The notes under the pieces are model-generated. The model did not search any database. It was not told the DNA's origin and worked only from the letters and a program-made list of their open reading frames with translations. This document shows positions 2,055 to 28,254 of a stretch of 64,000 nt of DNA, piece after piece. The stretch spans positions 124,001-188,000 of the forward strand of contig NZ_JAJVKW010000010.1 in NCBI RefSeq assembly GCF_024198255.1. Reading direction: 5' to 3'. The position numbers were made by a program, and so were the translations under genes. How positions within the stretch are numbered: the first letter of the stretch is position 1; each line of letters begins with the position of its first letter. Origin of the DNA: Myxococcus guangdongensis (GTDB taxonomy: Bacteria > Myxococcota > Myxococcia > Myxococcales > Myxococcaceae).

Positions 2055-3305
2055 ATGCTCAAGCTCCAGTGGCTGCAGGTCCACCGTTTCCGCTCCGTGA
2101 AGCCCGGCACGCGGCTGTCGTTCAGCCCGTCCTTCAACGTGCTGCTGGGACGCAACGGCACGGGGAAGACGCTGCTCCTGGACCTGGTCGCCGCCGTGGC
2201 CAGCTCGGACTTCACCACGCTCGCGGCGGAGCCGTTCGACCTGGAGTACGCGCTCGCCGCGGACACCGGCCACATCACCGTGCGGGTCCGCAACGAGCCG
2301 GTGCCCCCCCAGAGCGGCCCCGTGGCCGCCGGCCTGTTCATGGACATCGTCGTCTCGCCGCGCGACATGGCCTGGCCATTGGTCATCCGCCGCGAGGGAC
2401 TCCAGGTCACCGTCTCGCGCCAGGACGACGCGTCGCTCGTCGTGCAGGAGCGCCTGGCGCCGGAGGTCGCCGGTCGCCTGTGGCTGGTGCTCATGTCCGG
2501 AGGCATCGCCTGGGTGGAGAAGACCGGCGAGGGCTCGGCCACCGTGGAGCCGCTGCTCGCCATGGCGCGCGAGGTGTCCGCGCTCGCGGGGCTGAGCCGC
2601 TTCGACGAGGGGCTCGCGTACTTCGAGCAGCTCTATCAGGTGGAGCTGCGCCTCTCCCGGCGCGCGGAGGGCGTGCTGGCCACGGGCACGGGGCTCGCGT
2701 CCGAGGCGCTCCTGGATGGCCTGCGCCGGCTCGCGGCCGCGCAGTGGGGCTCACCGCGCTTCGTCGTCCCGTCGGACGCGGTGCCCTTCCTGCGCGACGC
2801 GGCGCGGCTGCTCGGCTTCACCTCCGCGGAGGCCGTGCTCGTACCGGTGGTGGTGCCGCCCGAGGGCAAGTACGAGTCGCTGACGCTCGGCGGGCTGCAG
2901 CTGGACTTCCTGGGCCCCGCGGGGACGCGGGTCTCCGCTCGCCACCTGGGCCACGGCCAGAAGCGGCTGCTGGCGCTCCAGCATTACCTGGCCCGGGCGC
3001 GCGCGGTCGTGGTCGCGGACGAGGTGGCCCACTCGCTCCACCCTCAGCTGGTGCGGGCCAGCGTGGAGCCCCTGAAGGGCCGGCAGAGCTTCTTCACCAG
3101 CCAGAGCCCGGGCCTGATGGACCTGCTGTCCTTCGACTCGGCGGACCAGGTGCGCTCGAGCCTGGTGCTGTGCCGCCGCGACGAGGCCACCGGCCTCTTG
3201 TCCTGGGAGAACCCGTCCCCAGACGCCGCCGAGCGCCTGTTCACCGCCACCACCGCCACGCCCGGCCAGCTGGGCACCCTGCTGCAGACCCAGGGCCTCT
3301 GGTAA
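2055..3305 (+). CDS. AAA family ATPase (AAA_21/RecF-like), orphan
   Basis: The 416-residue protein opens with a strand typical of SMC/RecF-like ATPases (LQVHRFRSVKPGT) followed by Walker A GRNGTGKT at about residues 33-40. A region near residue 295 (GHGQKRLLALQHYL) is in the place of an ABC signature, then VVVADEVAHSLHP looks like Walker B, and SFFTSQSP is a probable switch-histidine region with Gln in place of His. This matches stand-alone AAA_21 ATPases that often accompany nucleases. No nuclease partner sits beside it: the next gene is an alpha/beta hydrolase 124 bp downstream. The start is supported by a purine-rich GAGGGGAGG stretch upstream. The ATPase fold is clear; the biological role is unknown. 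Confidence 0.8.
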   Translation: MLKLQWLQVHRFRSVKPGTRLSFSPSFNVLLGRNGTGKTLLLDLVAAVASSDFTTLAAEPFDLEYALAADTGHITVRVRNEPVPPQSGPVAAGLFMDIVVSPRDMAWPLVIRREGLQVTVSRQDDASLVVQERLAPEVAGRLWLVLMSGGIAWVEKTGEGSATVEPLLAMAREVSALAGLSRFDEGLAYFEQLYQVELRLSRRAEGVLATGTGLASEALLDGLRRLAAAQWGSPRFVVPSDAVPFLRDAARLLGFTSAEAVLVPVVVPPEGKYESLTLGGLQLDFLGPAGTRVSARHLGHGQKRLLALQHYLARARAVVVADEVAHSLHPQLVRASVEPLKGRQSFFTSQSPGLMDLLSFDSADQVRSSLVLCRRDEATGLLSWENPSPDAAERLFTATTATPGQLGTLLQTQGLW

Positions 3306-3428: not shown

Positions 3429-4265
3429 ATGCCGATGCTGTCCGTGAATGGAACCGAGTTGCATTACGAGGATACGGGTGGCTCGGGTGAGCCCATCCTC
3501 TTCAGCCATGGGCTCCTGTGGAGCACGCGGCTGTTCGACCCGCAGGTGGACGCGCTGCGAGGGCGCTACCGGTGCATCGCGTATGACCACCGGGGGCAGG
3601 GCCGCAGCGCCGTCCCCGACGTCAGCGCCATCGACATGGAGACGCTGTACCTGGACGCGGTGGGGCTCTTGGAGCAGCTCGACGTGGGGCCGTGTCACTT
3701 CGTCGGCCTGTCGATGGGCGGCTTCATCGGGATGCGCATCGCGGCGCGGCGGCCGGAGCTGTTGCGCTCGTTGACGCTGATGGAGACGTCGGCGGACCCG
3801 GAGCCGCTGGCGAACGTGCCGCGCTACACGCTGCTCAACCTCATCGCCCGGCTGGCCGGCCTGCGTCCGGTGGCGGACCCGGTGATGCGCATCATGTTCG
3901 GGCGCAACTTCCTGTCGGACCCGAACCGCGCCGAGGAGCGGGCGCTGTGGCGCGCGCGCCTGTTGGAGAACCGCCGGGACATCTGGCGCGCGGTCAACGG
4001 GGTGATTCGTCGCAACGCGGTGTCGCACGAGGTGCCGAGCATCCGCGTGCCCACGCTCATCGTGGTGGGCGAGGAGGACGTGGCCACCGTCCCGGCGAAG
4101 GCGGAGCGGCTCCACCAGCTCATCCCCGGCTCCCGACTGGCGCGACTGGCGCGAGGCGGGCACTCGTCCACGGTGGAGGAGCCCGCGCTCGTCAACGCGG
4201 CGCTGGGCTCCTTCCTGGAGTCACTGGAGCGTCCGCACGCATCGCCCCGCGTGGGACTGGGCTGA
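3429..4265 (+). CDS. Alpha/beta hydrolase
   Basis: This 278-residue alpha/beta-hydrolase fold protein has the oxyanion-hole HG at residues 27-28 and the nucleophile elbow GLSMGG with Ser95. A later Asp lies in VVGEEDVATV, and a C-terminal His in GGHSSTVEEP completes the triad. The ATG at 3429 was chosen because GGGGAGGG lies just upstream and the protein then begins with the usual first strand of the fold; the frame is open further upstream. There is no signal peptide, so it is cytoplasmic. Similar proteins are esterases, haloperoxidase-like enzymes or 3-oxoadipate enol-lactonase-like enzymes. Substrate cannot be predicted. Confidence 0.85.
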   Translation: MPMLSVNGTELHYEDTGGSGEPILFSHGLLWSTRLFDPQVDALRGRYRCIAYDHRGQGRSAVPDVSAIDMETLYLDAVGLLEQLDVGPCHFVGLSMGGFIGMRIAARRPELLRSLTLMETSADPEPLANVPRYTLLNLIARLAGLRPVADPVMRIMFGRNFLSDPNRAEERALWRARLLENRRDIWRAVNGVIRRNAVSHEVPSIRVPTLIVVGEEDVATVPAKAERLHQLIPGSRLARLARGGHSSTVEEPALVNAALGSFLESLERPHASPRVGLG

Positions 4266-4312: not shown

Positions 4313-7201
4313 TCACCCCTTCAGCCCGAGCAGCTTCTTCGCCGTGCGCGACAGGTCCTTGTCCATCGCGGCCTCGGGGATGTCGAGCAGGGCCGTCGCC
4401 ACCACCTTCCCCGCGCCGTGCGTGTTCTCACCGGCGAGCTTGAGGTAGGTCCCGAAGCGGGCGAGCCGCTCGGGGTGCGAGCGCGCGAGCTCCACCCGGG
4501 CGAGCAGCGCCTGGGACAGCGCCGCCTTCGGGAACTTCTCGAACAGGTTGCGCAGCGCCTGTCGCTCCATCGCCTCCGGCCGCGTCTCCGCCAGTCGCAC
4601 GGCGGGCTCGAGCATCGCCAGCCCGAAGGTCTTCAGCGCGGTGGACACCACGTTGGGCTTCCAGCCATCCACGAACGCGGAGAGCAGCGCCTCCGCCCCA
4701 CGCACGTCTCCGAGCACCCCGAGGGCATACACGGCGGCCTTGGCCCCCTCGTCGTCCGTGTCGCGCTCCTCCACGGCGTGGACGAAGCGGTCCAGCACCT
4801 CGGTGTCCCCCAGCCACGCGAGCGCCATGGCCGCGCGACGTCGCACGTCCTGGGACGCGTCCCCGTAGAACACCTGTCGCAGCACCGGCCACGCCTGCGT
4901 CAGTCCCAGACCCTCGAGCTGGTCCACCGCCGCCTGTCGTCCCTCGCGGTTCGACTCCGTCAGAGCGCGCTGCGCGAAGGGCCGCAGCCGCTCCTGCCGC
5001 TCCCGAGCGAGGCGCGCCACCGCCTCCGGCCCCCTCTCCCGCGCCTGCACGTCGTCGAGCACCTCGCGCACATAGAGCCCGAGCCCGCTGTCATGCCGCC
5101 TGCGCGACAGCCCGTCCAACAGCACCCGGGCCTCGGGCCTCCCCAGCTGCCCCAGCACCTGGACGGCCGTGCGATGCACCCGGTGGCTGTGATGCTCGGC
5201 CAGGGCGCGCTTCACCACCTCCAGCGCCTGCTCCCGAGGACGTGCCACCACCGCGCGCACCACGAAGGTGCTCGCCGCGCCGTCGCTCCACGCGGGATAC
5301 AGCGACTCCAGCAGCGCGTCCGTGCCCAGGCCCGCGTAGTAGTGCGCGGCGTGCGCCGCGGCCTCGTAACGCGTCAGCTCCCCGCGAGCCCGCTTCCTCA
5401 GGGCCTCGCCCGGATGCAGCGGCGCCTCGGGCTTGCGGATGCGGATGCTCGGATGCGTGGGCACCGGCTCCAGCGCGCCCGCCTCCACCTGCACCGCGCC
5501 CGCCAGCCGCACCAGGGCGATGCCCAGCACCTGGTACACCTTGATGAAGTCCTCCAACCGCTCCGCCGGGTCCGTCCGCTGCGCCAGCGCCTCCAGGAGC
5601 GCCCCGGGCTTCTCCAGTCCCAGCTCCCGCAGCCGCGCCACCAGGGGCTCCACCGCGCGCGGTGACACCGAGGGCAGTCCGTTCGAGAACCGCTCCGCCA
5701 GCTCGTCGCGCACCTCCGCCAACGCGATGGCCGCCCGGGACGCGCCCGCCGCGCGCGCCGCCTCCGCCCAGCCTCCCCGTGGCACCGCCACCGGCGCCTC
5801 GACGCGCGCGCTCCTCCGACCGCGCCGAGGCTCCTCGTGCGGCTCCTGTTGCCCCAGGCCGCGCAGCTCCAGGCCCTCGGAGGTCTCCACCACCACCGCG
5901 AGCGGGAAGAGCGTGGGCAGCGCGGCCTCCAGCCCCACGTTGCCCAGCACCACCTTCAGCGTGGCCCCCTCCAGCGCCGCGGACAGGGGCTCGTCGAGTC
6001 GCGAGTCCGCTGGGAGGAACAGCCCCCGGTCACCGGAGTCCACGAGCTGCGAGCGCTGCCCGCTCGCCAGCAGCGTCTGCACCCGCAGCGCCACCGGGAA
6101 CAGCTCTGGCGCGAACACGTCCTTGCGATGCTCCTGGAAGGCCGCCAGCGCCGCGCCGACGTCCGGCAACGCCACCTCCACCAGCCGGCGAAGCGCCGCG
6201 CCGCCCAGGTCCCGCGTCTTCTCCGTGCCCTCCAAGTCCAGCCGCACCGGCGCGAAGCCGGGATACCGGCCCCCCTTCGCGCCCTCCAGCACCGTGCCCG
6301 CGTGGCTCCGCTTGGGCTCCACGCTCCGGAGGAACGCGGGGAGGATCTGCTTCTCCGCGTAGTGCGCACCCGAGCCCAGGTCGATGAAGCGGCTCTCCCG
6401 GATGACGAAGTTGTCGGGTGTGGTGCGGGTGGTGAACGCGTACTCCAACAACCGCAGCCCCTCGACGGGCGCGCGGTCCTTCTTCGTCCACGTCTTGCCG
6501 ATGAGCTCCTCGACGTAGCGGTCCTCCAGCACCTCGCCGCCCAGGTGCTTCTCCACCTTGCGCGCGGTGAGCAGCATGTCCGCCATCAGGTCCGTGAAGA
6601 CGGGAGGCTCGAATGTCCCCGTGCGCGCCGCCGCCTGCTCCAGGAGCCCCGCCACCTCCACCGCGCGCGCCGCGAGCCTGCGCAGCCCGTTCGCGCGCAG
6701 CGCCTCGCCCAACGTGCGCACCTGCGCGGCCCGGTCCTCGGACAGCGCGGCCACGCCGGACATCCCCAGCTCACGCACCAGCGTGGACACCTGCGCCACG
6801 CCGGACCTCATCAGCTCGGCGGTGTCCGTCTTGCCCTTCTTCACGCTCTTCTTCGCGGGCCCCCCCGCGCCCACGGGCGCCGCGTCGGTGGTGACGAAGG
6901 CGTCGGGCGCGCGCGACCACGCCACGAGCAACGCCGCCGCGTGCTTGCAGAAGGGCCGCGAGCGCGCCGCCATGCACGAACACTTCCCCTTCACCTCGCG
7001 CCCATCGCCGAACACCAGGGACACCTTGTACGGCGAGGCCCCCGAGCCCGCCGCGTCCGCGAACAGCCGGTTCTCGAAGCGCGACAGGTGCGTGAGCTGC
7101 TTGTCGTCGAAGATGCGCGCGCCCTTCGACAGCTCGTCGCGGTCGCGGATGATGTCCGTCAAGGCCCCCATGCCCGGGGCCAGCCTTCGCACCTCATCCA
7201 T
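4313..7201 (-). CDS. SWIM zinc-finger protein with HEAT-like repeats
   Basis: This 962-residue protein has an N-terminal SWIM zinc finger: Cys74-x-Cys76 then Cys85-x-His87 (KCSCMAARSRPFCKH), the CxCx(n)CxH pattern. The C-terminal third (about residues 620-960) is made of Ala/Leu/Arg-rich helical repeats of HEAT type. SWIM fingers bind DNA or proteins. The gene is the last in a four-gene minus-strand operon; its ATG at 7201 overlaps the VWA stop by 8 nt, implying coupled translation. SWIM proteins recur beside MoxR/VWA genes in many bacteria, and the repeat-rich part may act as a scaffold or recognition module; that role is inference. Confidence 0.85.
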   Translation of the reverse strand: MDEVRRLAPGMGALTDIIRDRDELSKGARIFDDKQLTHLSRFENRLFADAAGSGASPYKVSLVFGDGREVKGKCSCMAARSRPFCKHAAALLVAWSRAPDAFVTTDAAPVGAGGPAKKSVKKGKTDTAELMRSGVAQVSTLVRELGMSGVAALSEDRAAQVRTLGEALRANGLRRLAARAVEVAGLLEQAAARTGTFEPPVFTDLMADMLLTARKVEKHLGGEVLEDRYVEELIGKTWTKKDRAPVEGLRLLEYAFTTRTTPDNFVIRESRFIDLGSGAHYAEKQILPAFLRSVEPKRSHAGTVLEGAKGGRYPGFAPVRLDLEGTEKTRDLGGAALRRLVEVALPDVGAALAAFQEHRKDVFAPELFPVALRVQTLLASGQRSQLVDSGDRGLFLPADSRLDEPLSAALEGATLKVVLGNVGLEAALPTLFPLAVVVETSEGLELRGLGQQEPHEEPRRGRRSARVEAPVAVPRGGWAEAARAAGASRAAIALAEVRDELAERFSNGLPSVSPRAVEPLVARLRELGLEKPGALLEALAQRTDPAERLEDFIKVYQVLGIALVRLAGAVQVEAGALEPVPTHPSIRIRKPEAPLHPGEALRKRARGELTRYEAAAHAAHYYAGLGTDALLESLYPAWSDGAASTFVVRAVVARPREQALEVVKRALAEHHSHRVHRTAVQVLGQLGRPEARVLLDGLSRRRHDSGLGLYVREVLDDVQARERGPEAVARLARERQERLRPFAQRALTESNREGRQAAVDQLEGLGLTQAWPVLRQVFYGDASQDVRRRAAMALAWLGDTEVLDRFVHAVEERDTDDEGAKAAVYALGVLGDVRGAEALLSAFVDGWKPNVVSTALKTFGLAMLEPAVRLAETRPEAMERQALRNLFEKFPKAALSQALLARVELARSHPERLARFGTYLKLAGENTHGAGKVVATALLDIPEAAMDKDLSRTAKKLLGLKG

Positions 7202-8405
7202 GGCGAGTCTCCTTGTCGGCGTCGAGCAGGGACGTCAGGTCCTGGTTCCGCATCACCCGCTCCACCACGTCCACCAGCTTGCGAGGCGTGCACCCGAAGC
7301 ACGGGATGCCCATCGCGGTGAGCTTCTCCGCCATGACGGGGTCGTACGAGGGCCTGCCTCCGTCCGACAGCGCCAGCAGGCACAGCACCTTCGCCCGCGA
7401 GTCCACCAGCTGCCGCAGCCGCGCCACCAGCTCCTCGGCGTCGCCGCCCTCGCACAGGTCCGTGATGAGGATGAAGAGCGTCTTCTCCGGGCGCTCCACG
7501 TAATGCGTCTGCGCATACGCCACCGCCCGGTTGATGTCCGTGCCGCCGCCCAGCTGCGCGCTGAAGAGCACCTCCACCGGGTCCGACAGCACGGGCGTCA
7601 TGTCGACCACCTCGGTGTCGAACAGGATGAGCCGCGTGCGCAGCACCTCCAGCGACGCGAAGATGGCCGCCATCACCGAGCTGTACACCACGCTCTCCGC
7701 CATGGAGCCGGACTGGTCCACCACCAGCGTCACGTCCCACTCGTGGTGACGGCGCTGGTTGGGCCAGAAGTAGAAGCGCTCGGGGACCAGCCGGCGGTGC
7801 TCCGCGTCCCAGCCCTTCAGGTTCTGACGAATCGTGCGCTTCCAGTCGATGTTGCGCGCAATCGGCAGCGGGCTCGTCCTGTCGCGCCTCAGCGCGCCGA
7901 ACACCGCCGTGCGCACGGTGGACTCCAGCTTCTTGCGCAGCGCGTCCACCACCTCGCGGACGATTTGCCGCGCCAGGGACTTGGCGTCCTCGGGGATGAG
8001 GCCGCGTGCGCTCACCAGCGTGGTCACCAGCTCCACGTTCTTCTCGAGGAAGGGCAGCGTCTCCGGCTCGAAGAGCAGCTGGGTGAGGCCCTTCTTCTCG
8101 ATGGCGTCCTTCTGGACGAGGGCAATCACGTCGTCGCGGAAGAAGCCGCGCAGCGCGCCGAGCCACTCGGGGATGTACGGCCGTGAGCCGGAGGACCCCG
8201 CGCTCTTCTCGCCGTAGACGAAGGACAGCGCGTCATCCAGCGCCTCCAGCTCCGTCTGGCCCACGCCCACCGCGCTCGCACCGGCGCCCAGCGCGTGCAG
8301 CGACGGACAGCTGCCCGTCTTCTCCGCGGCGGGGCCCAGCGCGAGCCGCCAGCGCAAGAGCGCCTCGCGGTCCTCCGGTGCCAGCTCCTTGGGGTCCACG
8401 CTCAT
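7194..8405 (-). CDS. VWA domain protein (CoxE-like) of the MoxR operon
   Basis: The 403-residue protein has a helical N-terminal half and a C-terminal von Willebrand factor A domain with a complete MIDAS metal site: DQSGS at residues 230-234, a Thr in GGGTDIN and an Asp in LITDLCEG. VWA proteins of this class work with MoxR AAA ATPases as adaptors in metal- or cofactor-dependent remodelling. The start codon overlaps the stop of the preceding DUF5682 gene as ATGA, and the 3' end overlaps the SWIM gene. No signal peptide, so it is cytoplasmic. The domain is certain; the client of the complex is unknown. Confidence 0.9.
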   Translation of the reverse strand: MSVDPKELAPEDREALLRWRLALGPAAEKTGSCPSLHALGAGASAVGVGQTELEALDDALSFVYGEKSAGSSGSRPYIPEWLGALRGFFRDDVIALVQKDAIEKKGLTQLLFEPETLPFLEKNVELVTTLVSARGLIPEDAKSLARQIVREVVDALRKKLESTVRTAVFGALRRDRTSPLPIARNIDWKRTIRQNLKGWDAEHRRLVPERFYFWPNQRRHHEWDVTLVVDQSGSMAESVVYSSVMAAIFASLEVLRTRLILFDTEVVDMTPVLSDPVEVLFSAQLGGGTDINRAVAYAQTHYVERPEKTLFILITDLCEGGDAEELVARLRQLVDSRAKVLCLLALSDGGRPSYDPVMAEKLTAMGIPCFGCTPRKLVDVVERVMRNQDLTSLLDADKETRHG

Positions 8406-10720
8406 AGCAGGTCATCCAGGTCGGCGAGCGCCTTGCCCAACTCGGCGCTCATGTCCTTGAGCTTCTCGGTGTCCTTCTCCGCGAGAATCGTCTTCACGGC
8501 CCGGCCCTTGTCTCCGAGCTGGCGCACCGCGACGACGTTCTCCAGGAGGTATCGCCGCTCGGTGGGACCGAGCACGCCCAGTGCCCTCCTCAATACCGGG
8601 AGGGTCTGACGGAAGCGCTCCGGGTCCACGCTCGACAGGAATGCATCCAGGGCCCGCACCACCTCGCGGTTCTTCACCAGCACCAGCGCGTTGACGCGCA
8701 GGAAGCCCTCCAGCCACGACGCGCCCGCCTCGGGCTCCACCGCCAGCGACAGCCGCAGCCCCACCTCGCGAGCCACCTCCGACTCACTCAGCTCCTCGGC
8801 CAGGTACAGCAGCCCCGTGGCCAGTCCCGACGTCGCCGGGTGCACGACGGTGCTCGACATCAACCCGCGCGCCTCGACGAGCCAGCCGGCCTTGTCCGCC
8901 AGCGGCTGTGCGAGGGCCACCTCGTGCAACGTCCTCAGCGCCGCCATCATCGAGGGCACGGCGTCCTGGGCGCAGGCGCACGAATCGGACACGCGCAGCA
9001 GCGCGCGAGCGAAGGTCTTCTGGCACAGCGCCGCCACGGCCTCGTCGCCCAGCGCCGTATGGGTTCGCGAGGTGCCATAGGCCACGAGCCCCGACAGCGC
9101 CCGCGAGGCCGAGGCGAGCGAAGGCAGGTCCGCGTCGGTGGCCGCATGGCCATCACAGGCGCGCAGGGCCGAGGCCATCGTCTGGGGACAGCCGGTGATG
9201 ACGGACTCCAGCAGCACCGCCGCCGCCGTGCCCGTGGACTTGGCGAGGCTCAGTTGCTCCTGGAGGACGCGCGTCGTCACCGCCTCGAGCGAGTCCCCGA
9301 GGACGATCTTCTCCACCAGCGCCACGTCGGTGGATGGCGTCCACTGCGCCTGCCAGGCCTCCCGCACGCGCGTCAGCGCGGCCTGTCCTCCCGCCTCCTG
9401 CGCCGTGGCCTTCTGCTGGCCAGTGGCGGCGAGGCCCGCGTAGGGAATGCCCACCACGCGCAGGCGGTGCAGGAAGACGGAGGAGCCCACCTCCACGGGG
9501 TTGTTCAACCGCAGGGTGAAGGTCTCCGCGCTGTCGGTGCTCGGCAGTCGGCGTGACTCGACCTCGCGCCAGAACTCCGCCTGCAGCGAGTTGCGGCCGA
9601 TGCGGCTCGCGACCCGCCCCACCTGGTGCCCCACGACGCTCTTCCACAGGAAGTCGTCGACGTGCGTTGCATCCCCGCGGCACAGCGTGGCCACGGTGGC
9701 CTCGCGCAGCTCGTCCAATCCAGGTGCGCTCTTCTCGCGAAGGTCCGCGAGCGTCACCGCGAGCCGGTACGCCTCCAGCACGTCGGACAGCGACGCGGTG
9801 AAGCCACGCATGCGCAGGTGTCCCGCGAAGTCGATGAGCACCTCCAGCGTGGCGCGCCGGAAGTCGCACTGGGCCTCGTGGGCCTTCTGGTAGAAGTGCG
9901 GCGCGCGGTTGCCGGCGCCGTAGCCGAGCTGCTCGGACAGTCGAGGGAAGCTGTACGGAATCACCGTCACCGCGCAGGGCACGGCGGTCGGGAGCTTCGC
10001 CTCCAGCGTCGGGTCCACGTCCCGGGCCAGGAACGCCGCCACATGGGCCGCGCCCGCCACCACGGCGATGCGCTCCGGAGGCACGCCGCTCGCGATGACC
10101 TCCAACACCTGACGCGCCATGAAGGCATCGCGCCAGCGGTGGTAGTCCGGCCGAGGGCCCGCGTTGAGCACGTCCGCCCAGGCGAGCAGCACGGGCCGGA
10201 AGCCCTCGGGCGTCCAGTCGGGGGCCTCGAACATCGCCTCCCACAGCTCCTCGAAGGAACGGTAGCCGCGCTCGCGGGCGAAGCGCGCGGTGAGCGGCTC
10301 CTCCAGGCGGGCGCACGCGGAGTCCTCGGCGTCCGCCTCGGAGGAGGGTTCGCCCTCGAGCGCCACGGCCTCCAGGTGACGGTCCACGCCCAGGCTGACG
10401 CCGACGGGGATGTCGATGAAGCGGGCGTGGGCGCCATGGGCCTTCGCCCAGCGCAGGGCGGCGTACTCGGGCGAGTAGTCCGCGAAGGGCCACAGCGCGG
10501 ACCCTGGGGTGTCGTCGGTGCGGTAGCCGAGCAGGGCGATGGGCGGCTTCGTCTCCGCGTCACACAGCACATCCACCAGCTCCGAGGCGTCACAGGGGCC
10601 CTCGATGAGGATGACCTCGGGCTTCACGTGCTCGAGCCAGCGCGTGAGCACGGCGGTGGTGCGAGGCGAGTGGTGGCGCACCGGGAACAGGTGGGCGCCC
10701 AGGAGCAGGTCCAGGTCCAT
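8402..10720 (-). CDS. DUF5682 family protein
   Basis: This 772-residue protein begins MDLDLLLGAHLFPVRHHSP and resembles DUF5682, a family almost always found between MoxR and VWA genes. The N-terminal part contains His/Asp-rich conserved stretches (FPVRHHSPRTT, LIEGPCDASEL) and a region recalling the TraB/ChaN-like haem-binding or erythromycin-esterase fold. The remainder is helical. The start at 10720 was preferred over an upstream in-frame Met because it forms a TGATG junction with the moxR stop (1-nt overlap). The 3' end overlaps the VWA start by ATGA. No biochemical activity has been assigned that I can name. Confidence 0.75.
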   Translation of the reverse strand: MDLDLLLGAHLFPVRHHSPRTTAVLTRWLEHVKPEVILIEGPCDASELVDVLCDAETKPPIALLGYRTDDTPGSALWPFADYSPEYAALRWAKAHGAHARFIDIPVGVSLGVDRHLEAVALEGEPSSEADAEDSACARLEEPLTARFARERGYRSFEELWEAMFEAPDWTPEGFRPVLLAWADVLNAGPRPDYHRWRDAFMARQVLEVIASGVPPERIAVVAGAAHVAAFLARDVDPTLEAKLPTAVPCAVTVIPYSFPRLSEQLGYGAGNRAPHFYQKAHEAQCDFRRATLEVLIDFAGHLRMRGFTASLSDVLEAYRLAVTLADLREKSAPGLDELREATVATLCRGDATHVDDFLWKSVVGHQVGRVASRIGRNSLQAEFWREVESRRLPSTDSAETFTLRLNNPVEVGSSVFLHRLRVVGIPYAGLAATGQQKATAQEAGGQAALTRVREAWQAQWTPSTDVALVEKIVLGDSLEAVTTRVLQEQLSLAKSTGTAAAVLLESVITGCPQTMASALRACDGHAATDADLPSLASASRALSGLVAYGTSRTHTALGDEAVAALCQKTFARALLRVSDSCACAQDAVPSMMAALRTLHEVALAQPLADKAGWLVEARGLMSSTVVHPATSGLATGLLYLAEELSESEVAREVGLRLSLAVEPEAGASWLEGFLRVNALVLVKNREVVRALDAFLSSVDPERFRQTLPVLRRALGVLGPTERRYLLENVVAVRQLGDKGRAVKTILAEKDTEKLKDMSAELGKALADLDDLL

Positions 10721-11805
10721 CAGCCCCTCAGGAGCTTCTTGCTGGCGGAGTACAGCTCCTTCCACGCGCCGGGGCGGCCCTTGGCCACGGTCTCCATGTA
10801 TTCGCGCAGGGCCTTCACGTCGTCGGCCTGCTCCTTCACCACCGCGCCCACGAGCGAGGCGGCCAGCTCCTGCGCGGTGACCTTCCCGCCGCCGAACTGC
10901 TGCGCGAGGATGGAGCTGTTGAACAAGACGCTGATGGCCTCCGCGGTGGAGAGCACCGCGCCCGGCGTGCGGACCTTCGTCTTGCCATCCTTCGTCACGC
11001 CCTCGCGCAGTTCCTGGAAGAGCGTGAGCAGCATGCGCGACAGCTCCTCGGTGGGCGGGACGCCGACCTGATAGTCATTGCGCAGCTCGGCCTCGCGCCT
11101 GGTGACGATTTGGATTTCCTGTTCCAGGTCATCGACGATGGGGACGGTGACGAAGTTGAAGCGGCGCTTGAGGGCGGCGCTCATCTCGTTGACGCCGCGG
11201 TCGCGCGTGTTGGCGGTGGCGATGAGGTTGAAGCCGCGCTGGGCGCTGACGACTTCGCCGAGCTCCGGGATGGAGACCTGCTTCTCGGAGAGGAGGGAGA
11301 TGAGGGCGTCCTGAATCTCGGGGGAGGTGCGCGTCACCTCCTCGAAGCGGGCGAACTTGCCGGTGCGCATGGCGCGCAGGACGGGGGAGGGGACCAGGGC
11401 CTCGGGGGTGGGGCCCTGCGCGAGCAGCAGGGCGTAGTTCCACGAGTACTTGAGGTGGTCCTCGCTGGTACCGGCGGTGCCCTGCACGATGAGGGCGGAG
11501 GTGCCGCTGATGGCGGCGGAGAGGTGTTCGGACAGCCAGCTCTTCGCGGTGCCGGGCTCGCCGACGAGCATCAGCGCGCGGTCGGACGCGAGCGTGGCGA
11601 TGCAGACCTGGATGAGGCCCCGGTCGCCCACGTACTTGGGCGTGATGGTGACGCCGCCCACGGGCTTGGGGCTCCCGAGGATGTAGGCCTCCACGGCGCG
11701 CGGCGACAGGGCCCACCCGGGAGGGCGAGGCTTGTCGTCGTGGGCGGCGAGGGCTTCCAGCTCACTCCTGAACTTCGCTTCGGCGGGCAGTCGGATGTCC
11801 GGCAT
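10720..11805 (-). CDS. MoxR-type AAA+ ATPase
   Basis: The 361-residue AAA+ protein has Walker A GEPGTAKS at residues 82-89, an acidic stretch FEEVTRTSPEIQDAL occupying the Walker B/pre-sensor region, a sensor-1 motif LIATANTRDRG and an arginine-rich ALKRRFNF segment. These fit the MoxR/RavA branch, which remodels protein complexes together with VWA partners. It is the first gene of the four-gene minus-strand operon and is divergent from the Septu-like pair. The start is ATG at 11805. High confidence in the family; the substrate is unknown. Confidence 0.9.
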   Translation of the reverse strand: MPDIRLPAEAKFRSELEALAAHDDKPRPPGWALSPRAVEAYILGSPKPVGGVTITPKYVGDRGLIQVCIATLASDRALMLVGEPGTAKSWLSEHLSAAISGTSALIVQGTAGTSEDHLKYSWNYALLLAQGPTPEALVPSPVLRAMRTGKFARFEEVTRTSPEIQDALISLLSEKQVSIPELGEVVSAQRGFNLIATANTRDRGVNEMSAALKRRFNFVTVPIVDDLEQEIQIVTRREAELRNDYQVGVPPTEELSRMLLTLFQELREGVTKDGKTKVRTPGAVLSTAEAISVLFNSSILAQQFGGGKVTAQELAASLVGAVVKEQADDVKALREYMETVAKGRPGAWKELYSASKKLLRG

Positions 11806-11876
11806 GCGTGAAAGCTACCGGCCCGGTCTGACACGCCACGCTCCGTCAGGTTGTCTCGATAGTGGCGGGAAAACCG

Positions 11877-11901
11877 ACCCTGGAGGAAACGCCTCCAGGG
11901 T
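11877..11901. promoter_or_regulatory. 10-bp inverted repeat between moxR and the Septu-like operon
   Basis: ACCCTGGAGG and CCTCCAGGGT form a perfect 10-bp stem around AAACG. It is 72 bp upstream of the moxR start (minus) and 50 bp upstream of the ATPase start at 11951 (plus), with no coding end nearby. A terminator is therefore less likely than an operator or a 5'-leader hairpin. The function is inferred from position. Confidence 0.45.
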
Positions 11902-11950
11902 GGCGACGTAGCAGTTGACCCCCTTGAGGGTTTCGGGCGTGCTACGCCCC

Positions 11951-13264
11951 ATGTACCTGAAGAAAGTGACCCTCGAGAACGTTCGCTCCATCGATGCGTT
12001 GGAGTGGGCGCCGTCATCGGCTCCGACGCTCGCGGGATGGCACGTCATCATCGGGGACAACGGTGCTGGCAAGAGCTCCGTCCTTCGCGCGATGGCTCTT
12101 GCGATGGTGGGCCCCAGCGAGGCTATTGCCTTGCGTCAGGATTGGAACGAGTGGCTGCGATGGCGAACCCAGTCCGGTTCGATTCACCTGACCCTGGATT
12201 GGGAATCGGAATGGGACCACTTCGCGGGAGGAGGAAGGGCACCGAAGAACGTCGACCTCCAGGCCCGATTGAGGTTCCAGCGCGCTGAGGCGGGGGCGGT
12301 TCAGCTCTCGGGGGAAGCTGTCACAACCGACCCTAACCGGAACATCTGGGGAGATGGCTACGGTTGGTTCTGCGCCTCGTATGGGCCCTTCCGAAGGTTC
12401 ACGGGGGGAGACAAGGACCAGGAGAAACTGTTCTTCTCCAATCCCAAGCTCGCGCGGCATCTCTCGGTGTTCGGTGAATCCGTCGCGCTGACGGAGTGTC
12501 TGGAGTGGCTCAAGCTGCTCCAGTTCAAGAACCTGGAAACGGATGGGAAAGGAAAGGAGGGCAAGCTGCTCGAGGCGCTCAAGCAGTTCATCAACCAGCC
12601 CGACTTTCTCCCGCACGAGGCCAGGCTCCACTCCATCAGCTCGGATGGCGTGCGCTTCGTCGACGGCAATGGCTGCGAGATTCCTGTCGAGAACCTGAGT
12701 GACGGCTATCGCTCCGTCCTCAGCATGACGTTCGAGCTCATCCGCCAGCTCGTGAAGACCTATGGCGCGGAGCACCTCTTTGCCTCGGGTGATGCGACGA
12801 CGGTCCAGGTGCCGGGGGTCGTCCTCATCGACGAAATCGATGTCCACCTCCACCCCACCTGGCAGCGCCGTGTCGGGCACTGGTTCCGGAAGCACTTTCC
12901 TCACATCCAGTTCATCGTCACCACGCACAGCCCGCTCATCTGTCAGGCCGCGACAGTGGGCAGCATCTTCCGGTTGCCCCGCCCCGGAAGTGAGGAGTCG
13001 GGTGGAATGGTCACTGGCATCGCGAGGGACAGGTTGCTGTACGGCAACGTCCTGGATGCTTATGGGACAGGGGTCTTCGGAGACGTGCCCACGCGTTCGG
13101 TCGAGGCCATCGCGCAGCTCGAGCGCCTGGCGATGCTCAACCAGAAGGAACTCTCCGAAGGGCTCAATGACAAGGAGCGACAGGAGCAGGAACGCTTGAG
13201 GGCACAGACCCCGACGGCCGCGAGCGCGCTTCCCTCTCCTGCCGTGGAGGACCTGCTCAAGTGA
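11951..13264 (+). CDS. ptuA-like: ABC-type AAA ATPase, Septu PtuA-like
   Basis: The 437-residue protein starts MYLKKVTLENVRSIDAL, a RecF/SMC-type first strand, and has Walker A GDNGAGKS at residues 35-42. Later come an ABC signature-like NLSDGYRS, Walker B VVLIDEIDVHLHP and a switch histidine in VTTHSPLI. It overlaps the HNH nuclease gene by 4 nt. ATPase plus HNH nuclease is the arrangement of the Septu phage-defence system (PtuA/PtuB), also borrowed by some retrons; no reverse transcriptase is present here. The ATG at 11951 was chosen over an upstream in-frame TTG at 11915 because it gives the canonical N-terminus. By eye, codon use is less G/C-extreme than in the neighbours, hinting at transfer. 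Confidence 0.8.
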   Translation: MYLKKVTLENVRSIDALEWAPSSAPTLAGWHVIIGDNGAGKSSVLRAMALAMVGPSEAIALRQDWNEWLRWRTQSGSIHLTLDWESEWDHFAGGGRAPKNVDLQARLRFQRAEAGAVQLSGEAVTTDPNRNIWGDGYGWFCASYGPFRRFTGGDKDQEKLFFSNPKLARHLSVFGESVALTECLEWLKLLQFKNLETDGKGKEGKLLEALKQFINQPDFLPHEARLHSISSDGVRFVDGNGCEIPVENLSDGYRSVLSMTFELIRQLVKTYGAEHLFASGDATTVQVPGVVLIDEIDVHLHPTWQRRVGHWFRKHFPHIQFIVTTHSPLICQAATVGSIFRLPRPGSEESGGMVTGIARDRLLYGNVLDAYGTGVFGDVPTRSVEAIAQLERLAMLNQKELSEGLNDKERQEQERLRAQTPTAASALPSPAVEDLLK

Positions 13265-14070
13265 TTCGTCTGCCGCAAGGGCAGTTGCCAGAAGCCGCTC
13301 GCCAAGGGCTCGAGGGATATCAACAGTCCATCGACGCCCTGCCTGACTACGCGGGGCGAGTGGCGCTGGCGAAGAAGCGCTTCTCTTCGCTCAACAAGAT
13401 TGGCAATCCGACCTTCGACCACGTCAAGTCGACGCTGACGCAGATGTGCTCGGGCGCGCGGCGCTGCGCCTATTGCGAGGACTCGGTCGCGGACGAGGTG
13501 GAGCACATCCGCCCCAAGACGCTCTACCCAGAGGTCGCCTTCGCGTGGATGAACTATCTCTATGCGTGCGGCTCCTGCAACGTGCGCAAGAATGACCACT
13601 TTGCTGTCTTCGACGAAGCCTCGAACGTGTTGACGAAAGTGGCCCGGCCCCGGCTGGCGCCCGTGACGCCGCCCATTCCTGGCAGGCCCGTGTTCATCGA
13701 CCCTCGTGTCGAGGAGCCCACGGACTTCCTTGAGCTCGACCTCCGCGACACCTTCTTCTTTCGTCCCAGGGCAACCCCGAAGACGGAGGCGTATCACCGC
13801 GCGGAGTACACGATTGATGTCCTGCAATTGAACCTGAGGGAGGTGCTCCCGCATGCGCGTCGTGCCGCCTATTGGGATTATATGGCGCACTTGAACGGCT
13901 ACCTCCGGGCGAAGTCACAGGGAATGCCCCAGGAGCACCTCGACATGCTGGCACGGCAGGTCCGAACGAGGCAGCACCCCTCGGTGTGGATTGAGATGAA
14001 GCGTCAGCATGAGCGTCTTCCCGAGCTGCTACTCCCGTTCACCCTCGCTCCCGAAGCGCTCGGGTGGTGA
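13261..14070 (+). CDS. ptuB-like: HNH endonuclease, Septu PtuB-like
   Basis: This 269-residue protein carries a zinc-supported HNH fold: Cys69-x-x-Cys72 (CAYC), Glu81-His82 in DEVEHIRPK and Cys103-x-x-Cys106 followed by Asn107 (CGSCNVRKND). The segment FAWMNYLYACGSCN is typical of HNH partners of defence ATPases. The GTG start at 13261 overlaps the ATPase stop as GTGA, so translation is coupled. In Septu the nuclease is held by the ATPase and released on infection; that mechanism is known for the family and only inferred here. Confidence 0.8.
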   Translation: MIRLPQGQLPEAARQGLEGYQQSIDALPDYAGRVALAKKRFSSLNKIGNPTFDHVKSTLTQMCSGARRCAYCEDSVADEVEHIRPKTLYPEVAFAWMNYLYACGSCNVRKNDHFAVFDEASNVLTKVARPRLAPVTPPIPGRPVFIDPRVEEPTDFLELDLRDTFFFRPRATPKTEAYHRAEYTIDVLQLNLREVLPHARRAAYWDYMAHLNGYLRAKSQGMPQEHLDMLARQVRTRQHPSVWIEMKRQHERLPELLLPFTLAPEALGW

Positions 14071-25131: not shown

Positions 25132-26637
25132 ATGAATGCTCGGTTCTGGTGGTCCGGGGTGGTCCTATCGTGTCTGGCGATGGCGGGGTGCGAGTCGTCA
25201 GGCGGGAAGGGTGACGCGGGCGTGGTGGTGGAGGACGACAGTGGCACTTCAGTCGACGGAGGTCCGGGAGACGCGGGGCCTGGTGATGCAGGCACGGACC
25301 CGCTGGCCTGCGAGAAGCAGCACGGTGTCTGCGCGGGAGCCAGGCGCGCGATGGTGGATGGAGCGTACGAGCCGGAGTGCACGGCGCTCTCCTATGGCGC
25401 GGACTACGAGAGCTCGGAGACACGCTGTGACGGGCTCGACAACGACTGTGACGGCGTGACGGACCCGTCGATTGAGTCCCGCATCACGGCACTCCCTGGT
25501 GGGTACGCGTTGGGACAGATCTCCAGCCTCAGGACAGAGGCCGGGGTGTTGGTGGCGGTATTCGACGGAGCTGAATCCGCGCGTGTCCTCCGGCTGGACG
25601 ACGACCTGAAGGTTCAGGAGACGTCGAGCGTGCCGATGGCCTGGGTGCGCACGGGAACGGCTCGGCAGTACGTGCGCTCCTCGAAGCTGTTGCGGACCTC
25701 GGAAGGGCTCGCGCTGTTCTACTCCACCGCGAACTTCCTGGTGCGTCCGCTCAAGGCCTACCTCGTCCCGCTCGATGAGAATGGGGCACCGAAGAGAGGG
25801 CCGGACGGTGAGGTGGTGGAACATCAGTTGCTCGATCGGCCGCTGGATGAGGGGCGTACGGTGGTGGCTGCGTCGACCACGGAGGACCGGGTGGTGGTGC
25901 TCTGGACGACGGGTGGGCCCCTGACTCCTCCCATCCAGGTGATGGGCACCGTGGTGGATTCGAAGGGGCAGGTGCTCGTGGCGCCCAAAGCGCTCTTCGA
26001 GAGCACGTCGGGATGGACGCCCGCTCCGGAGAGTGCGTTGTGGCTGCGCAATGGTGAGCTCCTGGTGGCGCTGACGGAGGAGTCGGGGTCGGGGCAGGGC
26101 ACTGTCCGGGTTCGCCGACTCGACGCGGCGTTGGCTCAAGTGGGTGAGGAGCGAGCCTTCACGACGTCCGAGTGGCCGGCCCCGCAGTTGGTCGACCTGG
26201 GGGAGGCGGCGGGAGCTCCGCTTGCTTCTCCGGTGTTGGTGTGGCGAAGCCGAGAGGCGCCGGAGTCCCTCCGCTGGATTCGCGTGGCGGGCCACCTGTT
26301 CGACGGTGGCCAGCCGGTGACCTGGCTGGAGGACACCCCTGGCGATATCCCCTGGTTCGGAGCGTTCGTCGACGAGGGCGAGCTTCGACTGTCCTGGCTG
26401 TCGAGGTTCTATGCGCCAGGCGAGAACAACACGCCGCTCTATTGGGGCCGGCTGTGGACGCAGGACCCAGGTGTCGCACCGGTGGAGCGGACGCCGGGAC
26501 TGGAGCTGATGTCCCTGAACGAGCATGCGATGTGGGTGTTGATGGAGAAGGTGGCGCCCCGCCGCATGGCGACGATGTACACGGCGACCACGGCAGAGGG
26601 GCAGGTCCTGGACGCAGTCCGCTACTGCACGCCGTGA
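25132..26637 (+). CDS. MopE-like metal-binding-motif lipoprotein, copy 2
   Basis: The 501-residue paralogue has signal peptide VVLSCLAMAGC, an acidic linker shorter than in copy 1, then CEKQHGVCAGARRAMVDG, CTALSYGADYESSETRC and DGLDNDCDGVTD. The remaining propeller-like region ends in VLMEKVAPRRMATMY and LDAVRYCT. ATG at 25132 has CGGGGA just upstream, matching copy 3 at the same place. It starts divergently from the toxin gene (24984), so the two share a 147-bp upstream region. Expected as an outer-membrane or surface lipoprotein; the ligand of the MopE-type motif is unknown. Confidence 0.8.
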   Translation: MNARFWWSGVVLSCLAMAGCESSGGKGDAGVVVEDDSGTSVDGGPGDAGPGDAGTDPLACEKQHGVCAGARRAMVDGAYEPECTALSYGADYESSETRCDGLDNDCDGVTDPSIESRITALPGGYALGQISSLRTEAGVLVAVFDGAESARVLRLDDDLKVQETSSVPMAWVRTGTARQYVRSSKLLRTSEGLALFYSTANFLVRPLKAYLVPLDENGAPKRGPDGEVVEHQLLDRPLDEGRTVVAASTTEDRVVVLWTTGGPLTPPIQVMGTVVDSKGQVLVAPKALFESTSGWTPAPESALWLRNGELLVALTEESGSGQGTVRVRRLDAALAQVGEERAFTTSEWPAPQLVDLGEAAGAPLASPVLVWRSREAPESLRWIRVAGHLFDGGQPVTWLEDTPGDIPWFGAFVDEGELRLSWLSRFYAPGENNTPLYWGRLWTQDPGVAPVERTPGLELMSLNEHAMWVLMEKVAPRRMATMYTATTAEGQVLDAVRYCTP

Positions 26638-26739: not shown

Positions 26740-28254
26740 ATGACTGCAAGGTATTGGCGGGTCGTCCTGGTCCTGTTGTGGGTGGTGACGGGGTGTGATT
26801 CCTCGGAGGGGAAGGGGGACGCGGGCACGGTGGTGGAGGACGGTGGTGCTCGGGAGGATGGCGGAACGCCGGAGGACGCAGGGCCCGGTGATGCAGGCAC
26901 GGACCCGCTGGCCTGCGAGAAGCAGCACGGCGTCTGCGCGGGAGCCAGGCGCGCGATGGTGGATGGAGCGTACGAGCCGGAGTGCACGGCGCTCTCCTAT
27001 GGCGCGGACTACGAGAGCGCGGAGACGCGCTGTGATGGGCTCGACAACGACTGTGACGGCGTGACGGACCCGTCGTTCGCGTCACGCGTCACGAACCTGG
27101 ATATGCCTTATGTGGACGGCCTCTCCATCCTCCGGACGGACCAGGGCGTCTTCGTGTCCATGAGCGGCAATGGGGTTCGCATCCTGCGGTTGAACACGGA
27201 CCTGGTGCTGCAGGGAACCGGGACAGTGTCGATGCCCTGGACGCGCAAGGACGCGCCGGTGGGAGTGAGCTATGCGGCGAAGCTCCTGCGAACTCAGGAC
27301 GGGCTCGCGTTGGTCTACGCCACGCATGGCCCGAGCCTCGGGCCCCCATTCCACGCGTATCTCGTCCCGTTGGATGCCCAGGGCTTGCCGAAGACTGGGC
27401 CCGAGGGTGACCTGCTGGAGTTCCCTCTCGTCGACTGGCAGGGAGATGGGCGAGCGCCTCGGATGGCGACGTCTCCCCAGGGAGACCGGGTGGTGGTGGT
27501 CTGGCGCACGGGGACCGAGCAGACACCTCCGTTTCAGGTGATGGGAGCGGTGACGGACCTCCGGGGACAAGTGCTCGTCGCGCCGAAGGTGCTCTTCACG
27601 AGCCCCGAGAGAAAGCAGCCATGGCCCAGTGACGTCCTCGTGCTGCGCAACGAAGAGGTCCTGGTGGCAGTGAACGATGAATCCCCCGCGCTGGGGGGCG
27701 ATACCGTGCGGCTGCGCCGCTTCAACACCCACCTGGACCCGGTGGGCGACGAGCGCTCCTTCGAGCTTGCCTACGGCGCGGCGCCCCGATTGGTGGAGCT
27801 GGGGGCCACGCGTGGGGGACCGCTGGAGTCGCCGGTGTTGCTGATGCGCTCGAGAGTCGGACCGCCGTGGGTCACCCAGGTCCAGGTCGTCCAGAACCTC
27901 TTCAGTGGAGGCGTGGGGGAGACCTGGAGCGAAGTGCCCACGCCCCAGGTCGCCTGGTACGGCGCGCTCGCGGACGAAGGCGTGCTGCGGTTGGCGTGGC
28001 TCTCCAAGCACAAGGACTACGGGGCTCCACCTCCTGGTGGTGATTCCTTTCTGGGCTGGGAAGGGCGTCTCTGGACTCAGGACGAGGGGCATGCGTCAGC
28101 GGATCGCTCTCCCACTCCGGACCTCCTGCCGCTGCATGCCCATGCCCAGTGGGTCCTGATGGAGAAGCTCGCGCCTCGTCAGGTGGGCGCGCTCTACATG
28201 ACGTCCACGGTGGAGGGCAGCTCCCTGGACGCGGTCCGCTACTGCACGCCGTGA
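26740..28254 (+). CDS. MopE-like metal-binding-motif lipoprotein, copy 3
   Basis: The 504-residue paralogue has signal peptide VVLVLLWVVTGC (lipobox VTGC), an acidic Gly/Asp linker, and a motif block nearly identical to copy 2 (CEKQHGVCAGARRAMVDG, DGLDNDCDGVTD). The downstream region is more divergent but ends in VLMEKLAPRQVGALY and LDAVRYCT. ATG at 26740 follows GAGGA and sits at the same place as in copy 2. The strong conservation of the motif block against the drifting propeller suggests recent duplication or gene conversion there. Function unknown. Confidence 0.8.
   Translation: MTARYWRVVLVLLWVVTGCDSSEGKGDAGTVVEDGGAREDGGTPEDAGPGDAGTDPLACEKQHGVCAGARRAMVDGAYEPECTALSYGADYESAETRCDGLDNDCDGVTDPSFASRVTNLDMPYVDGLSILRTDQGVFVSMSGNGVRILRLNTDLVLQGTGTVSMPWTRKDAPVGVSYAAKLLRTQDGLALVYATHGPSLGPPFHAYLVPLDAQGLPKTGPEGDLLEFPLVDWQGDGRAPRMATSPQGDRVVVVWRTGTEQTPPFQVMGAVTDLRGQVLVAPKVLFTSPERKQPWPSDVLVLRNEEVLVAVNDESPALGGDTVRLRRFNTHLDPVGDERSFELAYGAAPRLVELGATRGGPLESPVLLMRSRVGPPWVTQVQVVQNLFSGGVGETWSEVPTPQVAWYGALADEGVLRLAWLSKHKDYGAPPPGGDSFLGWEGRLWTQDEGHASADRSPTPDLLPLHAHAQWVLMEKLAPRQVGALYMTSTVEGSSLDAVRYCTP

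Follow-up and report, generated by a model that had tools for sequence, protein, structure and literature searches.

A Myxococcus operon of MoxR, DUF5682, VWA and SWIM/HEAT genes related to E. coli yehL-yehM-yehP-yehQ, with a predicted Tiki-superfamily domain in DUF5682

The DNA studied here (hereafter the window) is a stretch of 64,000 nucleotides from Myxococcus guangdongensis (assembly GCF_024198255.1, contig NZ_JAJVKW010000010.1, positions 124,001 to 188,000 of the forward strand), and coordinates given without a locus name are positions within it. Four consecutive genes on its reverse strand are well supported as a myxobacterial form of an ancient operon for protein remodelling, of the type represented in Escherichia coli by yehL-yehM-yehP-yehQ. 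The first gene (10720..11805) encodes a MoxR-family AAA+ ATPase of the YehL type (361 amino acids; AAA_5, E = 1.4e-39). The second (8402..10720) encodes a YehM-type DUF5682 protein (772 amino acids; PF18934, E = 3.9e-128) with a helical C-terminal part; its residues 1-286 (9863..10720, reverse strand) are predicted from fold matches and conservation to form a hydrolase-type domain of the Tiki/TraB/ChaN/EreA superfamily, with H16, E40, R197 and H226 as candidate active-site residues. The third (7194..8405) encodes a CoxE-type VWA protein of the YehP type (403 amino acids; VWA_CoxE, E = 1.5e-48) and the fourth (4313..7201) a SWIM/HEAT protein of 962 amino acids (HEAT_2, E = 2.6e-21; SWIM, E = 0.0013 over the whole protein). 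The genes are joined by a TGATG at 10722-10718, an ATGA at 8405-8402 and an 8-nucleotide overlap at 7201-7194. The initial annotation had described four coupled open reading frames with these domains, a MoxR/VWA pairing and two proteins lacking an assigned function, all of which is borne out. The unit is more than a chance arrangement, because both its composition and the motifs of its proteins are conserved in relatives.

The MoxR protein is an orthologue of YehL with intact ATPase motifs, and its Walker A sequence (GEPGTAKS), FEE motif, sensor N199 and RRF motif are each conserved in at least 97% of 105 relatives. The DUF5682 gene lies directly 3' of it and is followed in turn by the VWA gene, whose product has its VWA domain at residues 162-378, no additional domain and an intact metal ion-dependent adhesion site (MIDAS; D230xSxS, T289, D316) with residues conserved in at least 97% of 104 relatives. 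E. coli K-12 has the same arrangement: yehL (MoxR), yehM, yehP (VWA) and, last, yehQ (SWIM). YehL, YehM and YehP are homologous to their counterparts in the window over nearly the full length (44% identity, E = 5e-91; 25%, E = 4e-23; and 37%, E = 2e-71, respectively), and PF18934 was also detected in the E. coli control genome. The two operons differ at their ends, since a DUF4132-type protein, YehI, is encoded upstream in E. coli, and YehQ (614 amino acids) has no HEAT half and aligns with the fourth protein of the window at most near the SWIM motif. This motif is found in both, but blastp gave no significant match between them and the profile comparison with a YehQ-like set reached 24%. Seven MoxR subfamilies are recognised, YehL among them (PMC3893208). 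The yehLMPQ region is nearly universal in E. coli (5301 of 5426 genomes, 98%), and 5320 of the 5322 places where it occurs are chromosomal.

The genomes of bacterial and archaeal species were scanned and yielded at least 568 confirmed relatives. The best 80 of these were fetched; they represent Bacillota, Bacteroidota, Actinomycetota, cyanobacteria, Pseudomonadota, Planctomycetes, spirochaetes and myxobacteria, in a sample that does not give true phylum frequencies. The usual order among the 80 loci is SWIM, a helical protein, MoxR, DUF5682 and VWA. Where the flanks were long enough (58 loci), MoxR, VWA and the SWIM protein were each present in 56, and 46 had a further gene between those for SWIM and MoxR. 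Three layouts occur in myxobacteria: type A, that of the window (MoxR-DUF5682-VWA-SWIM/HEAT); type B (SWIM-DUF5691-MoxR-DUF5682-VWA); and type C, which agrees with E. coli in having a WGR/DUF4132 protein upstream of the set and, downstream of it, a SWIM protein resembling YehQ. Some genomes carry two different DUF5682 operons, of types B and C (G037, G054) or A and C (G043), at loci L044, L049-L052 and L054. YehI of E. coli (L002, 280-3912) matches the WGR/DUF4132 proteins of the type C operons and, judging by this similarity, probably belongs to the yehLMPQ module.

The widespread operons with SWIM and DUF5691 (or an unnamed protein of ~650 amino acids) share the MoxR, DUF5682, VWA order with the window, and over ~400 residues their SWIM protein and the N-terminal half of the fourth protein are homologues. 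In them, however, the SWIM and helical genes are separate and lie 5' of MoxR, whereas the window has SWIM and HEAT fused at the 3' end. The CxC..CxH motif of SWIM is found in 96 of 97 proteins, with cysteines and histidine intact in the window protein, and a SWIM scan of the N-terminal half alone gave E = 5e-4, just above its cut-off; the C-terminal half matches HEAT_2 with E = 6.5e-23. Since residues 1-440 match stand-alone SWIM proteins in profile comparisons (98.8%, E = 9e-17, and 99.4%, E = 1e-21), the fourth gene fuses, on sequence evidence, a HEAT solenoid to the SWIM protein that other versions of the module encode separately, a reading that is new here. The HEAT half may be said to occupy the place of the helical partner gene; homology with DUF5691 or with the ~650-amino-acid protein of Bacillota was considered and found no support (profile E = 0.006-0.045), so that the comparison is one of position. 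The gene between SWIM and MoxR in Bacillota (L060, 6762-8756, and its equivalents) encodes a constant, hitherto undescribed partner of ~600-690 amino acids that matches nothing in Pfam even at E = 1.

No solved structure matching DUF5682 by sequence was found with phmmer, and none that is meaningful by profile search. AlphaFold2 models were confident, with a predicted local distance difference test score of 87 for the whole protein and 88 for residues 1-286 folded alone. The N-terminal domain was folded separately because the structure search with the whole model was filled by matches to the helical C-terminal part and thus uninformative for this domain; the C-terminal half resembles assorted solenoids only at the level of a common helical arrangement. 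With residues 1-286, the nine best chains in VIA-align, which merely re-ranks Foldseek candidates, all belong to the Tiki/TraB/ChaN/EreA superfamily (Z = 10.0-5.9, the next row having 4.6): a ciliate complex IV subunit (three entries), ChaN (Z = 7.7), HopBA1, EreC (two) and Ere-like proteins (two). The ciliate subunit is very probably the member of the TraB family that has been reported in this complex (PMC10060162). Weak Pfam matches among 66 DUF5682 domains point the same way, with ChaN found ten times, TraB seven times and every other family once. In profile alignments R197-M201-G223xxH226 falls on the RN..M...GxxH of TraB and its ChaN equivalent, with scores of about 26, where seven control families reach 14-19, at a low probability (about 4%). 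Wherever the column is filled, and with E. coli YehM included, H16 (65 of 65), E40, R197 and H226 (66 of 66 each) are invariant. The His/Glu/Arg/His set is essential in RRSP, a Tiki endopeptidase (PMC6254334), and the spacing from the Arg to the second His is 29 residues in both RRSP and DUF5682. The central parallel beta-sheet of the predicted model and this conserved set, both shared with EreC, ChaN, HopBA1 and RRSP, lead us to reassign DUF5682 residues 1-286, for the first time here, to a predicted Tiki/TraB/ChaN/EreA fold. DUF5682 differs from these relatives in its long insert between Glu40 and Arg197, its helical C-terminal half, the lack of the first Glu of the ExH motif and its tie to a MoxR-VWA pair.

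Taken together, these features make it somewhat probable (about 0.55) that the operon is a YehL-type MoxR-VWA remodelling module, here of type A, that uses ATP to control or feed a Tiki-fold DUF5682 hydrolase and serves conserved physiology rather than a dedicated anti-phage system. The computations show what the genes are, their order and distribution, the predicted fold, the conserved residues and the lack of defence enrichment, and from these we infer a physical complex, catalysis, a coupling of ATPase and hydrolase, and a substrate. In such a complex, a MoxR hexamer would hydrolyse ATP, the VWA protein would use its MIDAS site to connect this hexamer with a client or with the DUF5682 protein, and the SWIM/HEAT protein could be a scaffold or recognition subunit. 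The Tiki/TraB/EreA-fold domain of DUF5682 would probably act as a hydrolase on a peptide or ester bond of the molecule that the complex presents, and the module may act in protein maturation or quality control. RavA-ViaA, NorQ-NorD and CoxD-CoxE likewise pair MoxR with a VWA protein for remodelling; they belong to other MoxR subfamilies and are not known to include DUF5682 or a SWIM protein. It can tentatively be proposed, and with some doubt, that the MoxR-VWA motor and the Tiki-fold hydrolase form an ATP-dependent processing machine, in which the VWA and SWIM/HEAT proteins choose the client and DUF5682 cleaves it. If true, this would be AAA+-linked proteolysis of a kind new to the literature searched, distributed over many phyla and nearly all E. 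coli. An operon carried by nearly all E. coli and many other bacteria has had no assigned function, and the placement of DUF5682 in a hydrolase superfamily would offer H16, E40, R197 and H226 as the first residues open to test, along with a mechanism that could be tried in K-12.

Several observations weigh against this interpretation. YehQ and the SWIM/HEAT protein of the window are not clearly homologous outside the SWIM motif. The operon is dispensable, having been deleted in the viable genome-reduced E. coli DGF-298 (PMC10652928), and Shigella sonnei lineages have lost yehM and yehL (PMC12795559). The Foldseek match of the N-terminal domain is weak (EreC, E = 9e-3, template modelling score 0.33), as is the probability of the TraB and ChaN alignments, and ChaN shows that the fold can serve binding instead of catalysis. 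Position 14, at which the ExH motif of Ere and RRSP would have its first Glu, is I or V in all aligned rows; this Glu (part of the 2His/2Glu set) defines the Ere/RRSP-type site and not the whole superfamily. In lacking it, DUF5682 resembles a TraB-like rather than an Ere-like site. In the literature searched there was no paper on DUF5682, nor on MoxR with SWIM. Finally, the operon is absent from 9 of the 27 genomes of the window's genus, DUF5682 being carried by the other 18. The nine genomes measure 9.0-9.5 Mb, and in the four that were examined no operon remnants were found beside the retained flank genes, among which an AAA/hydrolase pair is kept. Since a second genus of the family (g26) has a match in every one of its 15 listed genomes, a loss in one clade is the simplest reading.

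The least unlikely of the rival explanations, though still a doubtful one, is that DUF5682 is a client or cofactor carrier and no hydrolase. MoxR-VWA would then remodel DUF5682 or a partner enzyme in the manner of CoxDE, NorQD and CbbQO, and the Tiki-like domain would bind a cofactor in the way that ChaN binds haem. The CoxE type of the VWA protein and the presence of ChaN among the structural matches are consistent with this, and MoxR-VWA pairs of known role mature dedicated complexes (PMC3893208). Nevertheless, genes for metabolic enzymes or cofactors do not recur next to the module across phyla, and the His/Glu/Arg/His residues never vary where aligned, a pattern shared with Tiki proteins that are active enzymes.

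A role in conflict or defence, which the initial annotation had put forward, is unlikely. It would make the operon a MoxR-VWA system of the ternary type (Kaur et al. 2020, PMC7159879), with DUF5682 as an effector released upon sensing infection. Myxobacteria do carry such systems (PMC7159879), and they share with the window a MoxR ATPase, a VWA co-chaperone and further components in one operon. Yet no VMAP, iSTAND or beta-propeller Pfam domain was found in the operon, nor are there diversifying effectors. The MoxR protein scores 20.6 bits against bpMoxR, below the cut-off of 27. The order also differs, as the ternary systems have the third component, MoxR and vWA, with variable effectors C-terminal to vWA, whereas the window has MoxR, DUF5682 and VWA; YehL, YehM and SWIM go unmentioned in the paper that describes them (PMC7159879). 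HopBA1, among the structural matches, recalls that Tiki-fold proteins can be effectors, and the SWIM region has a weak match to PDC-S62, a PADLOC candidate (E = 6e-8), but the components of the module are constant across phyla rather than diversifying.

The genomic context gives little further support to a defensive role. The initial annotation had proposed neighbourhood statistics for DUF5682, and these revealed no enrichment of defence genes: in PADLOC, the two nearest genes on each side of 79 loci outside the genus (252 proteins) included a single type I restriction cluster together with a few generic matches of ATPase type, while 135 genes further out, with several clear defence matches, scored no lower than the nearest neighbours; these counts are approximate, as the lists comprise the 25 most frequent families. 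In addition to being near-universal and chromosomal in E. coli, the module is very rare on plasmids and phages, since tblastn found it in 32 of 72,556 plasmid records (several of which are very large replicons or look chromosomal), in one of 50,697 phage records and in none of IMG/VR. The single phage record (MT835988.1, 10611-12758; H31) is a short unannotated 'Bacteriophage sp.' entry from faecal samples that encodes DUF5682 and is possibly bacterial DNA inside a phage record.

The remaining argument for defence is the neighbouring Septu system, a genuine pair, as had been suspected, of adjacent genes for the PtuA ATPase (11951..13264, forward strand; PADLOC, E = 1e-166) and the PtuB HNH nuclease (13261..14070, forward strand; E = 1e-117), which lie outside the module. 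It is divergent from the operon across a 145-bp intergenic region (11806..11950) that contains the perfect inverted repeat noticed earlier, with 10-bp arms at 11877-11886 and 11892-11901 and a 5-nucleotide loop; this arm length was matched by 8 of 500 shuffles. The promoter that the operon was said to direct towards Septu did not appear, as a consensus scan of the region found neither a sigma-70-type promoter nor a terminator. Septu adjoins the operon in the window and four other genomes and lies within about 10 kb in three more, that is, in 8 of the 18 carriers of the genus; the pairs of three genomes (L039, L040, L171) are 4-9 kb away with other genes between, and the closest relative (G003) has no Septu at all. 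Eight of 17 PtuA copies near one locus are far above chance, and the link in this genus is real as a location effect, through either inheritance or a recurrent site, two options that the poorly resolved PtuA trees do not separate. The initial annotation had contrasted its defence proposal with an operon conserved in all relatives at a fixed housekeeping location and with no defence link. The flanks are indeed common to many relatives and the site is mostly fixed in the genus, but the operon is not in all genomes and Septu is often near. The Septu neighbour is thus changeable and no sign of the operon's function; a variable neighbour beside an old operon calls for caution in inferring defence from an adjoining Septu.

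Finally, it is very improbable that the module remodels nucleoproteins, with SWIM (and, in operons of the E. coli type, the WGR of the DUF4132 protein) contacting nucleic acid or its proteins and MoxR-VWA-DUF5682 processing a DNA- or RNA-bound protein. In its favour are the near-constant presence of a SWIM protein, the WGR-DUF4132 protein upstream in type C operons and the DUF4132-like genes that recur in Bacteroidota. Against it, SWIM can mediate protein contacts too, the operon type of the window lacks DUF4132, and no DNA-repair neighbours recur.

Two other regions of the window can be mentioned. An AAA_21-type ATPase (2055-3305, forward strand) has weak PADLOC matches to AriA and MAD3, and keeps an alpha/beta hydrolase (3429-4265) as its neighbour even in genomes that lack the operon. 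Further away, the adjacent proteins encoded at 25351-26637 and 26956-28254 have near-identical starts (MVDGAYEPECTALSYGADYES...RCDGLDNDCDGVTD), an apparent tandem duplication.

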